A stretch of 27,764 nucleotides of DNA from a virus. The position numbers were made by a program, and so were the translations under genes. This document shows, one piece after another, positions 10,288-16,866 of the stretch. Numbering within the stretch: the first letter of the stretch is position 1; each line of letters opens with the position of its first letter. Below the pieces are notes generated by a model that saw nothing but the letters and a program-made list of their open reading frames with translations, was not told the DNA's origin and made no database searches. Where the stretch lies: positions 1-27,764 of the IMG/VR virus record IMGVR_UViG_3300006752_000163. One strand, given 5' to 3'.

Positions 10288-11712
10288 ATGGCAATAAATT
10301 ACAGAAGCAAGCAGCAGACTATATCTCAGGCAAGCTCAGACATAGTGCTACTTACGCCGGGGGCGGGTATCGACACGATCATCGTAAATTCTGTTGTATG
10401 CAAGTTTCAGACAGGTAGCGTACTGACCGGTGTGGAGTTGAAGATCGCGAAGAATGATGGGTCGGGTCTTACCAAGTCTTTCTTTCAGGCTGACTTTGGG
10501 GATCTCGATAGTGGAGCGGACTACCCAGCGAACAAGGCGGCGGAGTGTCTCACCGCGCCCATCGTTCTGGAGGATGGTGACGAACTTATCGCCAACATTG
10601 AAGGCGGGTCATTCACCTACTTCATTCAGTTTGCCGAGCGCACCACTGCCGCTGCTACGGGAGACATTGAGAACCTAAGCAATGTTTCTGCTGACTCGCC
10701 TAGCAACAATGACGTACTCATCTTTAATAGCGCTAGTGGTCAGTATGAGCCTGGATCTGTCTCTGCAGCGGGTACGGGGTCTATTACTGGAACCAATGGC
10801 TTGACTGAGGATGCCCCAAACAGGTTTATGAAAAGGCTGGACTTGCTTGATGACATCGCAAATGATGCTGCGGATTACCTTGCTACCTCTCCGAATACAA
10901 TCTTTCTAGTTCAGCCATCTGGGAACGGTAGCGTAAAGAAGATCACCTTCGAGGATATCATGGCTGCTATCGTTCAGTCTGGCGCCCAAACACTGATCGA
11001 CGCAGGTTATGGTACATCAACTACATATACGGCTGATGGATCATCGACTCTAGGTGACTTGGACGGTGACGGGTCTGTCACCACCTCTGACTTGCTCCAG
11101 TTCTTGGTTCAGTTCGGAAGTATTCTCGATGAGGTAACTGCCAGCTTCATCCAGAGCTTTGTCATTTTCCAAGCGAGTCCCGGGGCGGGTCAGGGACAAA
11201 CTGTGCTGCAAAACAACGGTACGGCGTATGTTATGCCACTGGGCACTCTGACCGGCAACTACGTTATTGATACAACCGGATCTCAAGATGTAACTGTAAA
11301 CACGACCGCCGGCTCAGTGACTTTTGAGGAGAATCAGACTGATTTTGCCGGTCAAGGTGCATTCAAGATTCGATTGGAGAATAATCCAGATGATCCAGCT
11401 ATCGAGGTGCTTTCTAAGGAAGACGGTACTGTGGTAGAGATCATCATTCGTCTAGTGTCTTTGAATGGGGTAGGTGGAACGATTGATTCAACGGAAATTG
11501 TACTTCACAATGGCACTTACCCATCATCAAGCGTATTTGTTGACGCTGGCTTTGCCAACGTTAAGACATACACACAAGCGCATTTCTCTGAGTTGAATAA
11601 TGAGGATGCTAAAGGTTACCAGGTTTCATTTAAGGCCAGAAGGCTTTCTTCAAACTCTCAGGTTCCGGCGGTGAGGTTCAACAATATGAAAATTAAGTTT
11701 CTAAAAGAATAA
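10288..11712 (+). CDS. Tail fibre/baseplate protein with a dockerin-type EF-hand loop
   Basis: This 474-aa protein sits between the hub gene and the lysis region and is Ser/Thr/Gly/Asn-rich with many short beta segments. Residues 1-115 look like a beta-sandwich attachment domain, followed by a short collar-like motif (DIENLSNVSADSPSNNDVL) common in phage fibres. Residues 257-268 (DLDGDGSVTTSD) form a complete 12-residue calcium-binding loop with Asp at positions 1, 3, 5 and 12, followed by LLQFLVQFG, as in type I dockerin repeats. Only one repeat is present. The C-terminal 170 residues are beta-rich and could be the receptor-contacting tip. It is a virion fibre by context; its receptor is unknown. 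Confidence 0.6.
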   Translation: MAINYRSKQQTISQASSDIVLLTPGAGIDTIIVNSVVCKFQTGSVLTGVELKIAKNDGSGLTKSFFQADFGDLDSGADYPANKAAECLTAPIVLEDGDELIANIEGGSFTYFIQFAERTTAAATGDIENLSNVSADSPSNNDVLIFNSASGQYEPGSVSAAGTGSITGTNGLTEDAPNRFMKRLDLLDDIANDAADYLATSPNTIFLVQPSGNGSVKKITFEDIMAAIVQSGAQTLIDAGYGTSTTYTADGSSTLGDLDGDGSVTTSDLLQFLVQFGSILDEVTASFIQSFVIFQASPGAGQGQTVLQNNGTAYVMPLGTLTGNYVIDTTGSQDVTVNTTAGSVTFEENQTDFAGQGAFKIRLENNPDDPAIEVLSKEDGTVVEIIIRLVSLNGVGGTIDSTEIVLHNGTYPSSSVFVDAGFANVKTYTQAHFSELNNEDAKGYQVSFKARRLSSNSQVPAVRFNNMKIKFLKE

Positions 11713-11714
11713 CC

Positions 11715-12779
11715 ATGGCTAATATCGTAGTCTATAACAAGAACGCTAAGGTAGTCATCCTCCTCGCCACAGGGGTGAGCTATGTAGACGAGAATGACGG
11801 AAGCTTCCTTGCCGAAGCAGATACGGGGACATCCGTCAAAATCAAGGATGTGGCAAAAAATCGACACATTTGTCTAGAGGTGCCCTTCGCGAATATCGTG
11901 GACAATGCTGGCGCCGCTATTGGAACCGATCAGGCTACCACTGTGTCTACGCTCAATGAGAGATTCTTTGACGTTTCTGACTCTATCCTCTTCAAGTCGC
12001 AGGTAAGGTCTGCGGTAGGCCATAGTAAGGGTGATTTGCTGACCATCTTTGGTTCATACAAGCAGGGTCTTGTCACAACGAAGCAAGCGAGTAACAACGC
12101 TGTTGCCGCTCTTGCCTTCGGTATGGCTACCGAAGCGACCTCAGCCGGGGCTATTGGAGAAGCTATCTCTGTGGGTCACTTTAGTGGTGTAGACACGAGT
12201 TCAATGAGCGTCGGAGACGCGATCTATCTTGATGGAGGAATCACCCAGGGCGACTTCACCAATGTTAGACCTGCTAATACCGGTGACATCATTCAGGCTC
12301 TAGGGTATGTAACTAAGTCCGACGCCACGGACGGAGAAGTGTTCCTCAACATAACTCCAGACCACCAGGTTGTACCGGCTCCAACGGTAAAAAACTTCAT
12401 TAGCGGCGCCTTCTTTGACAATACTATCCGGGACGTCTATCTCCCCGTTAATGCTACGGACAATGAGAATGCCTTTCTGCAGCGCTGGAACCGGTGGGTC
12501 TGCCCATACGATTGCAAGATTGTTGGCTTTAGGTTCCGTCGCGACTACACAACAGCGACAAGTGGCACCGTGACTTTCGGTGTGTACTCAAACAATACTG
12601 GGTCAGTCGTCACGCTGGTGGACGAAACCACCGTTACACCTCTCTACGGGAGTGGCACTCAGACCTACATCGCGGTTGATGCGGATGTCTCGGCGGGCAT
12701 CACATACGCCTTTAGACTTGAGAACGACTTAAATGTCGCCATGGGTAACTGCGTATTCTCTATCATAATCGAACAGTAA
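11715..12779 (+). CDS. Fibre-like structural protein
   Basis: This 354-aa protein has a small N-terminal beta domain, then a module at about residues 100-220 (GHSKGDLLTIFGSY, HFSGVDTSSMSVGDAIYLDGG, IIQALGYV, GEVFLNI). That module resembles beta-domains repeated in phage tail fibres, where the G-x-DTS...GD-x-(I/L)YL pattern recurs. The last about 120 residues (from SGAFFDNTIRD) form a separate beta-sandwich that could bind the host surface. It lies directly after another fibre-like gene (a gap of two bases), and its stop overlaps the start of the next small gene. No enzymatic motif is visible. A tail-tip or receptor-binding role is likely but inferred. Confidence 0.52.
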   Translation: MANIVVYNKNAKVVILLATGVSYVDENDGSFLAEADTGTSVKIKDVAKNRHICLEVPFANIVDNAGAAIGTDQATTVSTLNERFFDVSDSILFKSQVRSAVGHSKGDLLTIFGSYKQGLVTTKQASNNAVAALAFGMATEATSAGAIGEAISVGHFSGVDTSSMSVGDAIYLDGGITQGDFTNVRPANTGDIIQALGYVTKSDATDGEVFLNITPDHQVVPAPTVKNFISGAFFDNTIRDVYLPVNATDNENAFLQRWNRWVCPYDCKIVGFRFRRDYTTATSGTVTFGVYSNNTGSVVTLVDETTVTPLYGSGTQTYIAVDADVSAGITYAFRLENDLNVAMGNCVFSIIIEQ

Positions 12780-12931: not shown

Positions 12932-14836
12932 ATGACAAGACTTACCCTCTTCTTTCTCTTCTCACTTTTCTTTAACACGCTAACCGCTCAGGAGGAATGC
13001 TCCATCTTCAAGGGCGCCAAAATTATGGGGCTTGATGTTGCTAGGGTAGAGGTGGATTTGGATAATGTGGAGGTGCAGACACTTCCGATTGTTTTTCATG
13101 TCGTAAATACAGGGTCTTCAGAGGAGAATAACATCTCCGATGAGCAGATCTTATCGCAAGTAGATGTCCTAAATGAAGAGTTTGCTGACAGCAAGATTCA
13201 GTTCTGCATGGCGGCTCGCGATCCCGAAGGGAATCCAACGTCGGGCATCACGCGATACAATGCGAGCTGGAACGATGATTACGCACAGGGTGGTGTAGCT
13301 AACGCATCTGGGAATGCGGGGTGGTCTGATTCTCAAATGAAGGCCGCTTCGGGGTGCTGGAACCCTAATGAGTACCTCAACTACTACGTAGTGTCCGAAA
13401 TCAACGGGAATGACGCAGGAAATGGGGTCCAGGGCTACGCATATCTCGGCCCAACAAACGACTGTCGAGATGGTGTGGTCGTTCTGTACAACACCACTGG
13501 CGACGAGGGTGTATTAAAGCCAGGGCGAACGCTTGGCTTCACAGGCGTTCATGAGGTGGGGCACTACCTCAGCCTATATCACACGTTCTCAAACAGCAAC
13601 GATTGTATTGAAACAAACTGTGAGACTCAGGGCGATCAGGTTTGTGACACCCCTGTGACGCTGACAAATTACTCATGCACAAATACGTCTTGTGCTGATG
13701 CGTTGGTGGAGAACTTCATGGACTACACTTCAGAGACCTGTAAGGAGAGCTTTACGGTGGGTCAGGCTGAGCGTATGCACGAGCAGCTTCAAACCTTGAG
13801 GACTGAGCTAACAGACAACTTGTCCTGCGTGCCCGTCGTCGACTACGATGTAACCATTGGATATGCCTACTACGATGAGGAGTGGTGTACACCATTTCAG
13901 GACATCTGGGTAGATGTAGTTAATCAGGGGTCGGTGCCTTTCGATTTTGTCGAGGTTAGCCTTTTTTGCAGTGGTGAGGAGTACACCGACGTTGTTTTTA
14001 ACCTTTCTCCGGGATCGGAGACATTGCTTTTTGAGGACGTTATGGTTGACGGGGCTCAGATGTTCGAGGTTCAAGTCAGCAGCGTCTTTGATCAATACCC
14101 AGACAATGATTACGCATGGTTTCCGGTGACGACAATCGAGGGTGACTTGATGTCTATCACGGTGGCTACCGACGTGTGGGGAAATGAGACCTCTTGGTCT
14201 ATTTTGGATGAAAACGGTGAGGAGGTGATATCAGACTCAGGCTACCCCACTGAGGAGGCTACTTACGAGTACGAAACGTGTGTGTATGAAGGGTGCTATG
14301 AGGTTGTAATCACCGACACCAATGGTGATGGTTTCTGCTCCTTCGACTTTGACAATGACGGAGTTTGTGATTTTGGAGATGGATACCTCTTGGCTACCAT
14401 CGGGCAGGACACCGTGGCTTACACCGGAGTGGCAGCAGTGTTCTCCACCTACACTCAGCAGTTCTGCAATACACTACCTGCCTGTGAGCTTGACTACGAT
14501 GGCAATGGAACGATCGGAAATGGCGACGTATTGGTGATGCTCTCTAACTACGGGTGCGTGGAAAACTGCGCTTATGATCCCAATCAGGACGGAATCGTCA
14601 GTGTGCAGGACTTACTTTTTATGCTATGGAACGTGGGTGATTGCCCCTTGGAGCAGGATCTGTCACTCGGAACATACAAGGCGTTCTTTGAGCCCACTCG
14701 TCAGTTTTTCCCAACCGGGAAGCCGCGCATTTACGACATCACTGGACGTCGTGTAGATAAGCCCTTTGAGTCACTGGCACGGGGAGTTTACATCCTCAAG
14801 TGGAAAGGACACACCAAAAAAGTCTTTGTACAATGA
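12932..14836 (+). CDS. Secreted M43 (pappalysin-family) zinc metalloprotease with T9SS type A sorting domain
   Basis: Residues 1-20 form a Sec signal peptide ending TLTAQ. The catalytic domain spans about 48-296: the zinc motif HEVGHYLSLYH lies at 207-217 (H207, E208, H211, H217), and the Met-turn NFMDY at 261-265 is followed by C-x-x-x-FTVGQAERM, typical of M43 proteases. Paired cysteines fit an exported protein. After a beta region, residues about 405-512 form a domain common in Bacteroidota exoproteins (SWSILDENG, DTNGDGFC). Two dockerin-type calcium loops follow at 521-532 and 549-560. The end (about 590-634: RIYDITGRRV, LARGVYILKW, KKVFVQ) has the pattern of a T9SS type A sorting domain. 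The gene is embedded in the late block and its stop overlaps the next start (ATGA). The G-to-S change at the eighth position of the zinc motif need not abolish activity, since that position varies in M43. Confidence 0.9.
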   Translation: MTRLTLFFLFSLFFNTLTAQEECSIFKGAKIMGLDVARVEVDLDNVEVQTLPIVFHVVNTGSSEENNISDEQILSQVDVLNEEFADSKIQFCMAARDPEGNPTSGITRYNASWNDDYAQGGVANASGNAGWSDSQMKAASGCWNPNEYLNYYVVSEINGNDAGNGVQGYAYLGPTNDCRDGVVVLYNTTGDEGVLKPGRTLGFTGVHEVGHYLSLYHTFSNSNDCIETNCETQGDQVCDTPVTLTNYSCTNTSCADALVENFMDYTSETCKESFTVGQAERMHEQLQTLRTELTDNLSCVPVVDYDVTIGYAYYDEEWCTPFQDIWVDVVNQGSVPFDFVEVSLFCSGEEYTDVVFNLSPGSETLLFEDVMVDGAQMFEVQVSSVFDQYPDNDYAWFPVTTIEGDLMSITVATDVWGNETSWSILDENGEEVISDSGYPTEEATYEYETCVYEGCYEVVITDTNGDGFCSFDFDNDGVCDFGDGYLLATIGQDTVAYTGVAAVFSTYTQQFCNTLPACELDYDGNGTIGNGDVLVMLSNYGCVENCAYDPNQDGIVSVQDLLFMLWNVGDCPLEQDLSLGTYKAFFEPTRQFFPTGKPRIYDITGRRVDKPFESLARGVYILKWKGHTKKVFVQ

Positions 14837-15843: not shown

Positions 15844-16043
15844 ATGTAGAAGATATGCTGACACTGATACCGTCACTTATCGGAGTGATTGGTGTTTGGG
15901 TGTCACTGAACAATGAAGTAGCAAAGCTCAAGGGTCGCGTGTACCGACTGGAAAGCGATCAGGGTGAGATGAAGGCTATGCTCAAGGAGTGTGTCGAGGG
16001 CATTCACGAACTCAAGCTCTTGCTCGCTAAAAAGGGGATGTGA
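15840..16043 (+). CDS. Small membrane protein with coiled coil; holin or spanin-like candidate
   Basis: This 67-aa protein has a hydrophobic segment at about residues 7-23 (LTLIPSLIGVIGVWVSL), then a charged coiled coil (NNEVAKLKGRVYRLESDQGEMKAML) and a helix ending LLLAKKGM. It starts inside the upstream stop (ATGA), and its stop overlaps the amidase start (TGATG). A membrane protein placed right before an endolysin that lacks a signal peptide is a candidate holin or inner-membrane lysis factor. A single transmembrane segment plus coiled coil would also suit an inner-membrane spanin. The exact lysis role is inferred from position. Confidence 0.6.
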   Translation: MNVEDMLTLIPSLIGVIGVWVSLNNEVAKLKGRVYRLESDQGEMKAMLKECVEGIHELKLLLAKKGM

Positions 16044-16594
16044 TGAGAGAGATAAACTTAATCGTGGTGCATTGCACCTACTCACCTCCGCGTATGGATA
16101 TTGGCGTGGAAGAAATTAGAAAATGGCATGTCGAAGGAAACTCCTGGACGGACATCGGGTATCATTACGTCATTCGTAGAGACGGCACGATCGAAGATGG
16201 TCGACCCATTGAAAGACCTGGCGCCCATGTTCAAGGTCACAATTCCCATTCGATCGGTATCGCGTGGGTTGGGGGGATGGCGGATGGCGCTGAGAAGCCT
16301 GAAGATAACCGGACTGAGGCGCAGAATGAAGCGCTGGTCTATCTCATTAAAAAGCTTCAGCAAGAGTTCCCGGGGGCCGCTTTGATCGGCCACAGGGACT
16401 TCAAGGGGGTAAAGAAGGATTGTCCGTGCTTCGACGTGCGTAAATGGTTTGCAAAAGAATGCAGTACAGAAAAAAAGGAAGCAGAGGAGCGAAGCCCAAG
16501 AGAAAGAATGGTTCGCCCGAGCACGATATTCAAGTTTTTATTGTCGATCACTTGGAAGCTATGGCGGTACCACCGCTCTACTCAGCGACGGTAG
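16043..16594 (+). CDS. N-acetylmuramoyl-L-alanine amidase (T7-lysozyme-like endolysin)
   Basis: It cleaves the amide bond between N-acetylmuramic acid and L-alanine in peptidoglycan. Conserved features match the T7 lysozyme / Amidase_2 fold: zinc ligands H10 (VVHCT), H117 (GHRDF) and C127 (KKDCPCFD), with Y40 (IGYHYVIRRDGT) and K125 in the places of T7 Tyr46 and Lys128, and PGAHVQGHNSHSIGI at 59-73. The ATG at 16043 is preferred to the GTG one codon earlier because it forms a TGATG overlap with the upstream stop. The fold ends near residue 140. The remaining 43 residues are basic with a hydrophobic helix (TIFKFLLSITWKLW) and lie almost wholly inside the overlapping nuclease gene. No signal peptide is present, so a holin-type release is expected. 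Confidence 0.93.
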   Translation: MREINLIVVHCTYSPPRMDIGVEEIRKWHVEGNSWTDIGYHYVIRRDGTIEDGRPIERPGAHVQGHNSHSIGIAWVGGMADGAEKPEDNRTEAQNEALVYLIKKLQQEFPGAALIGHRDFKGVKKDCPCFDVRKWFAKECSTEKKEAEERSPRERMVRPSTIFKFLLSITWKLWRYHRSTQRR

Positions 16595-16866
16595 GCGGAG
16601 TGAGGGTAGCCATGCACACGGCCCTAAAGATGAAGCGAGCGGGCTACAAGAAAGGTATTCCGGACTTGCTCATATTCGAGCCGAGAAAGGGGTATGCTGG
16701 ACTAGCTATTGAGGTCAAAACAGCCACAGGCCGAGCTAGTGAGCATCAAAAAGAGTGGATCAAGAACCTAAGAGAAAAAGGTTGGAAGGCCGAGATTTGC
16801 AAGGGGCTAAGCGCTTGCATCACGGAGATTGACAACTACTTCTCAAAAGAAAGCGACGTACTATAG
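16444..16866 (+). CDS. VRR-NUC family nuclease (PD-(D/E)XK)
   Basis: This 140-aa protein shows the stand-alone viral VRR-NUC layout: GGVRVAMHTALKMKRAGYKKGIPD at about 51-74, then AIEVKTATGRASEHQKEWI at about 88-106. The catalytic residues would be D74, E90 and K92, with Q102 following. Members cut branched or structured DNA, such as replication or recombination intermediates. The ATG at 16444 or the one at 16459 could be used; both overlap the amidase by at least 136 bases in another frame. The fold proper seems to begin near residue 25 (PEHDIQVFIVDHL). It is the last gene before the + strand terminator, an odd place for a replication-type nuclease, and may serve genome resolution before packaging. 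Confidence 0.88.
   Translation: MVCKRMQYRKKGSRGAKPKRKNGSPEHDIQVFIVDHLEAMAVPPLYSATVGGVRVAMHTALKMKRAGYKKGIPDLLIFEPRKGYAGLAIEVKTATGRASEHQKEWIKNLREKGWKAEICKGLSACITEIDNYFSKESDVL

Follow-up and report, generated by a model that had tools for sequence, protein, structure and literature searches.

A dockerin-type predicted calcium loop in marine phage tail fibres and its likeness to a C-terminal tag of Flavobacteriales

Many marine phage fibres share a dockerin-type predicted calcium loop that stays fixed while the rest of the protein varies widely. We describe it in P0001, a tail fibre of 474 amino acids encoded by an open reading frame (ORF) at 10288..11712 (+) in the window, the 27,764 bases that make up one whole IMG/VR record (IMGVR_UViG_3300006752_000163) and include a siphovirus-like tail region. 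By its sequence, the motif is a genuine dockerin-type loop, beyond what chance would produce. We give about an even chance to a scenario in which a single-repeat dockerin-like loop was captured from the tag of flavobacterial secreted proteins and repurposed as a calcium-stabilised joint at the neck of the fibre. Dockerin-type loops are already known; the open-access papers searched, a set outside which most subscription journals lie, contain no report of such a loop as a conserved part of a phage fibre and none of the single-loop flavobacterial tag.

Tail genes and the fibre loop

The tail region runs from a tail completion gene through three tail-tube-like genes and the tape measure gene to P0005, P0001, P0003, P0002, and P0004, followed by an amidase gene and by replication genes on the opposite strand. 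The three tandem genes (690-1388, 1401-2084, and 2097-2618, +) each resemble the Phage_tail_2/phrog_1407 tail-tube family and apparently encode three paralogous major tail proteins. P0005 (7161..10277, +), a tail protein, lies between the tape measure and P0001, and some relatives have it fused with the loop fibre. The gene directly after the fibre, P0003 (11715..12779, +), is co-conserved with it and encodes a candidate partner whose N-terminal 95 residues are conserved and whose remainder is variable. Next come P0002, a secreted M43 protease (12932-14836, +), and P0004 (14833-15843), which carries a type B sorting domain of the type IX secretion system (T9SS). Farther downstream, the ORFs of the amidase endolysin and of a VRR-NUC nuclease (16040-16594 and 16444-16866, +) overlap by ~150 bases in different frames. 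Neither P0001 nor P0003 has a convincing named family in PHROGs, Pfam, or NCBIfam. Among phage isolate records, nothing usefully matched the fibre, and its 60-residue stem-loop segment had no match at all; thus, the loop-fibre group is known from metagenomic contigs.

The motif, GDLDGDGSVTTSDLLQFLVQFG, spans residues 256-277 of P0001 (G256-G277; 11053-11118). It holds a 12-residue calcium loop, D257-D268 (11056-11091, +), recognised by its sequence, its conservation, and a pLDDT of ~90, with D257, D259, D261, and D268 at ligand positions 1, 3, 5, and 12 and a helix (residues 266-284) next. The first-pass annotation had proposed a full dockerin-type loop here, and the loop is indeed present, its ligands conserved in every homologue found. 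Like type I dockerins (PF00404), it combines a Gly-Asp start with D-x-[DN]-x-D-G-x-[VI]-x(3)-D and a following helix. Type I dockerins, however, carry two tandem repeats at the end of an enzyme, whereas P0001 has one loop-helix repeat inside a phage fibre, in line with the earlier remark that a single repeat is half a classical dockerin. The viral relative L020 has two repeats. A profile search against PF00404, suggested in the same annotation, gave a divided answer: the dockerin-type loop consensus is present, but the single-sequence score of P0001 is 13.4 bits, under the cut-off of 22.9, as is that of P0002 (11.6 bits). EF-hand models were also subthreshold for the loops of both proteins. 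When a profile of the phage loops was compared with solved proteins, the nearest were the dockerins 6kg9, 2y3n, 2mte, and 1daq (E ~3e-5 to 1e-4), with calmodulin at 0.07.

AlphaFold2 (AF2) was used to model the fibres as monomers without calcium. The model of P0001, built from a 30-sequence alignment, has a mean pLDDT of 77, with ~90 over residues 241-270. It starts with an N-terminal beta domain (residues 1-120; 10288..10647, +), the probable attachment part, whose nearest structural likeness is to cement and turret proteins of phages, which are trimeric (Z ~9). A stem helix (residues 221-238; 10948..11001, +) lies ahead of the loop, and the conserved helix after it (DLLQFLVQFG...; 11083..11139, +) leads to a TNF/C1q-like jelly-roll head (residues 286-474; 11143..11709, +; best VIA-align Z, 10.5, with an rmsd of 2.9 over 144 residues). 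This fold is that of receptor-binding tips that form trimers, and P0001 would likewise be trimeric. The same kind of head is found in Bdellovibrio Bd2734 (8okw; Z 10.5), the short fibre of cyanophage A-1(L) (8ke9; 9.8), and the receptor-binding protein of phage 1358 (4l92; 9.5), tips at whose necks we know of no calcium loop of the P0001 type. A second model, of the relative L005 (19-20% identical to P0001), has the same domain order and a TNF/C1q-like head (best Z 9.8), although with Z values of 8-10 on predicted models the head assignment for both proteins is a moderate one. As both models show helix, loop, and head in succession, the loop would sit at the neck, beneath a variable head with the look of a receptor binder. 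For calcium loops in phage proteins, the lysin LysGH15 offers a functional precedent; its EF-hand-like calcium-binding loop, as far as the account in PMC4022735 goes, lies in the enzyme domain, whereas that of P0001 lies in a structural fibre.

Conservation of the loop among viral contigs

Viral contigs were scanned with a degenerate DNA pattern of the 22-residue motif in which the calcium ligands were required. The pattern occurred in 39 contigs, against an expectation of 5.6e-8 per Gb under uniform composition; three of these (L023, L024, and L031) resemble bacterial secreted proteins, not phage. We then opened all four ligand positions, keeping the glycines and the hydrophobic framework positions. 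This ligand-free scan returned 48 contigs, nine beyond the first, and seven of the nine were spurious: they lay outside the reading frame, in short ORFs, or in low-complexity sequence. The other two, L249 in another protein and L256 in a fibre, are real loops whose position 5 is Ser or Asn; either residue is an acceptable ligand. Opening the ligand positions thus adds no real ligand-less loop, so the ligands persist in every genuine framework match. Homologous fibres without the Asp residues had been named beforehand as evidence that would count against a calcium loop; they were looked for, none was found, and the loop reading stands.

The members of the 30-sequence fibre alignment share 15-58% identity with P0001, and no column outside the motif is invariant or nearly so; within it, DLLxFL and FG are nearly invariant, although most rows were retrieved via the motif itself. 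A sample independent of the loop was therefore drawn by retrieving phages through the tail protein P0005. Among 13 distinct P0005 relatives with downstream sequence, the next or fused fibre carries the loop in 7; in the other 6, the C-terminal part of the fibre is unrelated and shows no sign of it. Since about half of these relatives lack the loop, a neck joint is not essential to the P0005 tail type. Across the eight loop fibres picked in this way (P0001 included), pairs of sequences are on average 65% identical over the loop, 31% over the stem, and 20% over the head, and the invariant residues are D257, G262, V264, D268, L269, L270, F272, L273, and G277.

A related C-terminal tag in Flavobacteriales

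A pattern scan against a set of one genome per species (84,980 species) found the motif in bacteria as well; the named genomes among the matches listed are Bacteroidota, mostly marine Flavobacteriales metagenome-assembled genomes. Among these listed matches, the loop lies near the C terminus in 78/80 host occurrences, typically 4-5 residues from the stop and flanked by cysteines, and by a crude rule many of the carriers have signal-peptide-like starts. A profile of this tag gave 46-123 matches per genome, at E up to 1, in ten tag-rich genomes (G001-G010). With the limit tightened to 1e-8, the 299 genomes of the order divide into 82 with at least 8 matches, 22 with 1-7, and 195 with none; across the class the tag is rare. 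This single-loop, cysteine-flanked C-terminal EF tag, abundant in roughly a quarter of Flavobacteriales and missing from most of the rest, is apparently undescribed. NCBIfam does hold a C-terminal calcium-loop module, the GC-type dockerin NF041540. A double-loop host tag matches it (31.3 bits; cut-off, 29) and Dockerin_1 too, whereas the P0001 fibre does not match NF041540, and neither of two single-loop host tags examined matches any Pfam or NCBIfam dockerin model, NF041540 included.

The P0001 loop fits the tag core, GD-x-[DN]-x-DG-x-V-x3-DLL-x-FL-xx-FG, and a comparison of the phage-loop and host-tag profiles gave a probability of 98.9 (E 1.1e-17). Given so close a match, a host origin of the loop is probable; this capture, with transfer from host to phage, is read from likeness and distribution, 22 residues being too few for a tree. 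Phage and host loops nevertheless differ in several respects. Both flanking cysteines are present in 110/116 host loops and in 0/28 phage loops, and the phage loops are internal, with a median of 201 residues after them. The absence of the cysteine pair is consistent with folding in a reducing cytoplasm. At helix positions x19/x20, host tags favour S/G and V/A and phage loops T/G and a mixture; loop position 11 is Pro in 40/116 host loops and in no phage loop.

The first-pass annotation had also described two loops in the protease P0002 and taken them to match that of the fibre. Both are present as described, D521-D532 (DYDGNGTIGNGD; 14492-14527, +) and D549-D560 (DPNQDGIVSVQD; 14576-14611, +), but the match does not hold, since they are of a different subtype. 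The host-tag profile A1 scores the fibre loop at 34.6 bits and the protease loops at 8.7 and 12.2 bits, and the fibre loop shares 15-16/21 identities with host tags but 8-9/21 with the protease loops, which form a cysteine-bearing pair. A module shared by fibre and protease was rejected on these scores and identities. In most phage proteases the loop pair is followed by a T9SS-like tail; in L058, L063, L065, and L074, the protein ends at the pair.

The relatives of P0002 in bacteria bear on the host of the phage. Its closest host relatives come from tag-rich genomes in 18 of the top 20, versus 82/299 overall (Fisher p 2e-9), and a sample of 12 agrees, which indirectly supports tag-rich flavobacteria as the likely host lineage. 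Some host relatives of the protease end in the tag (L214 and L216), others in a T9SS sorting domain (L213, L217, L218, L219, and L221), an alternation that resembles the one among phage proteases and suggests a sorting or anchoring function for the tag; tag-rich genomes also encode many T9SS sorting domains. A search for prophages with the P0005 profile, run without a positive control, found none in 399 genomes of the order.

On the viral side, an M43 protease with a T9SS type A-like tail and a type B (CHU_C) sorting-domain protein adjoin in ~30 marine viral contigs (L043-L088). Such paired P0002/P0004-type secreted proteins are, by their predicted features, phage-encoded cargo of the host type IX secretion system; phage genes with T9SS sorting domains are already known (PMC7468147). 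P0004 carries a GCTD..A.NYN..A..DDGSC repeat, and secreted proteins of hosts have the same repeat ahead of their C-terminal tag, a further putative link to the tag-bearing lineage.

Candidate roles of the loop

If the loop is a calcium-stabilised neck joint, the fibre would fold and assemble in the host cytoplasm at low free calcium. Seawater calcium is ~10 mM, and after release D257, D259, D261, and D268 would bind the ion, the hydrophobic face of the DLLxFLxxFG helix would pack on the stem, and the head would be held rigid and protease resistant for adsorption. This reading fits both the rise in calcium from cytoplasm to seawater and the missing cysteines; calcium binding and a stiffening role are what we infer for the loop. 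The helix, conserved as much as the ligands, would also fit a docking surface.

Docking could take place within the virion. Here, the conserved N-terminal 95 residues of P0003 would bind the loop or its helix in a cohesin/dockerin-like manner to form a two-protein fibre tip, a scenario that we regard as a serious rival to the neck joint, though rather unlikely. The coupling of the two genes speaks for it. A P0003-like gene lies directly 3' of the loop fibre in ~29 contig records, and it is present in 7/7 loop-bearing but 0/6 loop-lacking P0005 relatives, two of the six having short downstream sequence; the exact probability of this split, calculated by hand and ignoring relatedness, is 1/1716. 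A scan with one P0003 subfamily found 11 loci, all on loop-fibre contigs, and P0003 pairs its conserved N terminus with a variable remainder. Yet co-occurrence may only reflect the joint exchange of two fibre genes, and the L015 group, L020, L028, and L042 have the loop with no adjoining P0003-like gene. In many relatives of P0003, the N-terminal part (11715-12011) contains an acidic D-x-D-G-[DE] stretch, GDPDGDFVAEAG, possibly a second calcium site beside the fibre.

A partner on the host cell is also a serious rival explanation, but a less probable one. The fibre loop would then mimic the host tag and bind the cell-envelope partner that receives tagged proteins, either using it as an adsorption receptor or competing for it. 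Given 46-123 tag matches per tag-rich genome, such a receiver must be abundant, if one exists. In favour of mimicry, the 22 residues of the fibre loop, helix included, are nearly identical to those of the tag, and host orthologues of the protease have either the tag or a T9SS sorting domain. Against it, the phage loop has neither the cysteines nor the terminal position of the tag, it lies at the neck below a separate variable head that resembles a receptor binder, and host and phage preferences differ at helix x19/x20 and loop position 11. We likewise doubt, a little more strongly, that by taking over the tag phages came to share with bacteria a calcium-dependent docking code distinct from the known cohesins. 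Cohesins themselves had been proposed as partners of the fibre loop; none of the ten tag-rich candidate-host genomes has a cohesin domain (PF00963) over the Pfam cut-off, one subthreshold hit scoring 20.9 bits, so the proposal finds no support there.

Very improbable is a common surface partner for fibre and protease, which the first-pass annotation had raised. The two genes do belong to one module and both products have calcium loops, but the loops are of different subtypes, and those of the protease form a cysteine pair, mostly with a T9SS-like tail, whereas the fibre loop has neither. Finally, a chance or decayed sequence with no calcium function, to which the subthreshold single-sequence scores might point, is in practice refuted by the conservation seen in the ligand-free scan and the loop-independent sample, and we consider its likelihood negligible.

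For the phages, the fibre loop predicts calcium-dependent fibre stability and adsorption, and the 22-residue signature, together with the neighbouring P0003 gene, provides a handle for receptor-binding proteins of phages on uncultured flavobacteria. For the bacteria, some Flavobacteriales genomes contain dozens of copies of the single-loop tag, whose putative receiver can now be sought.
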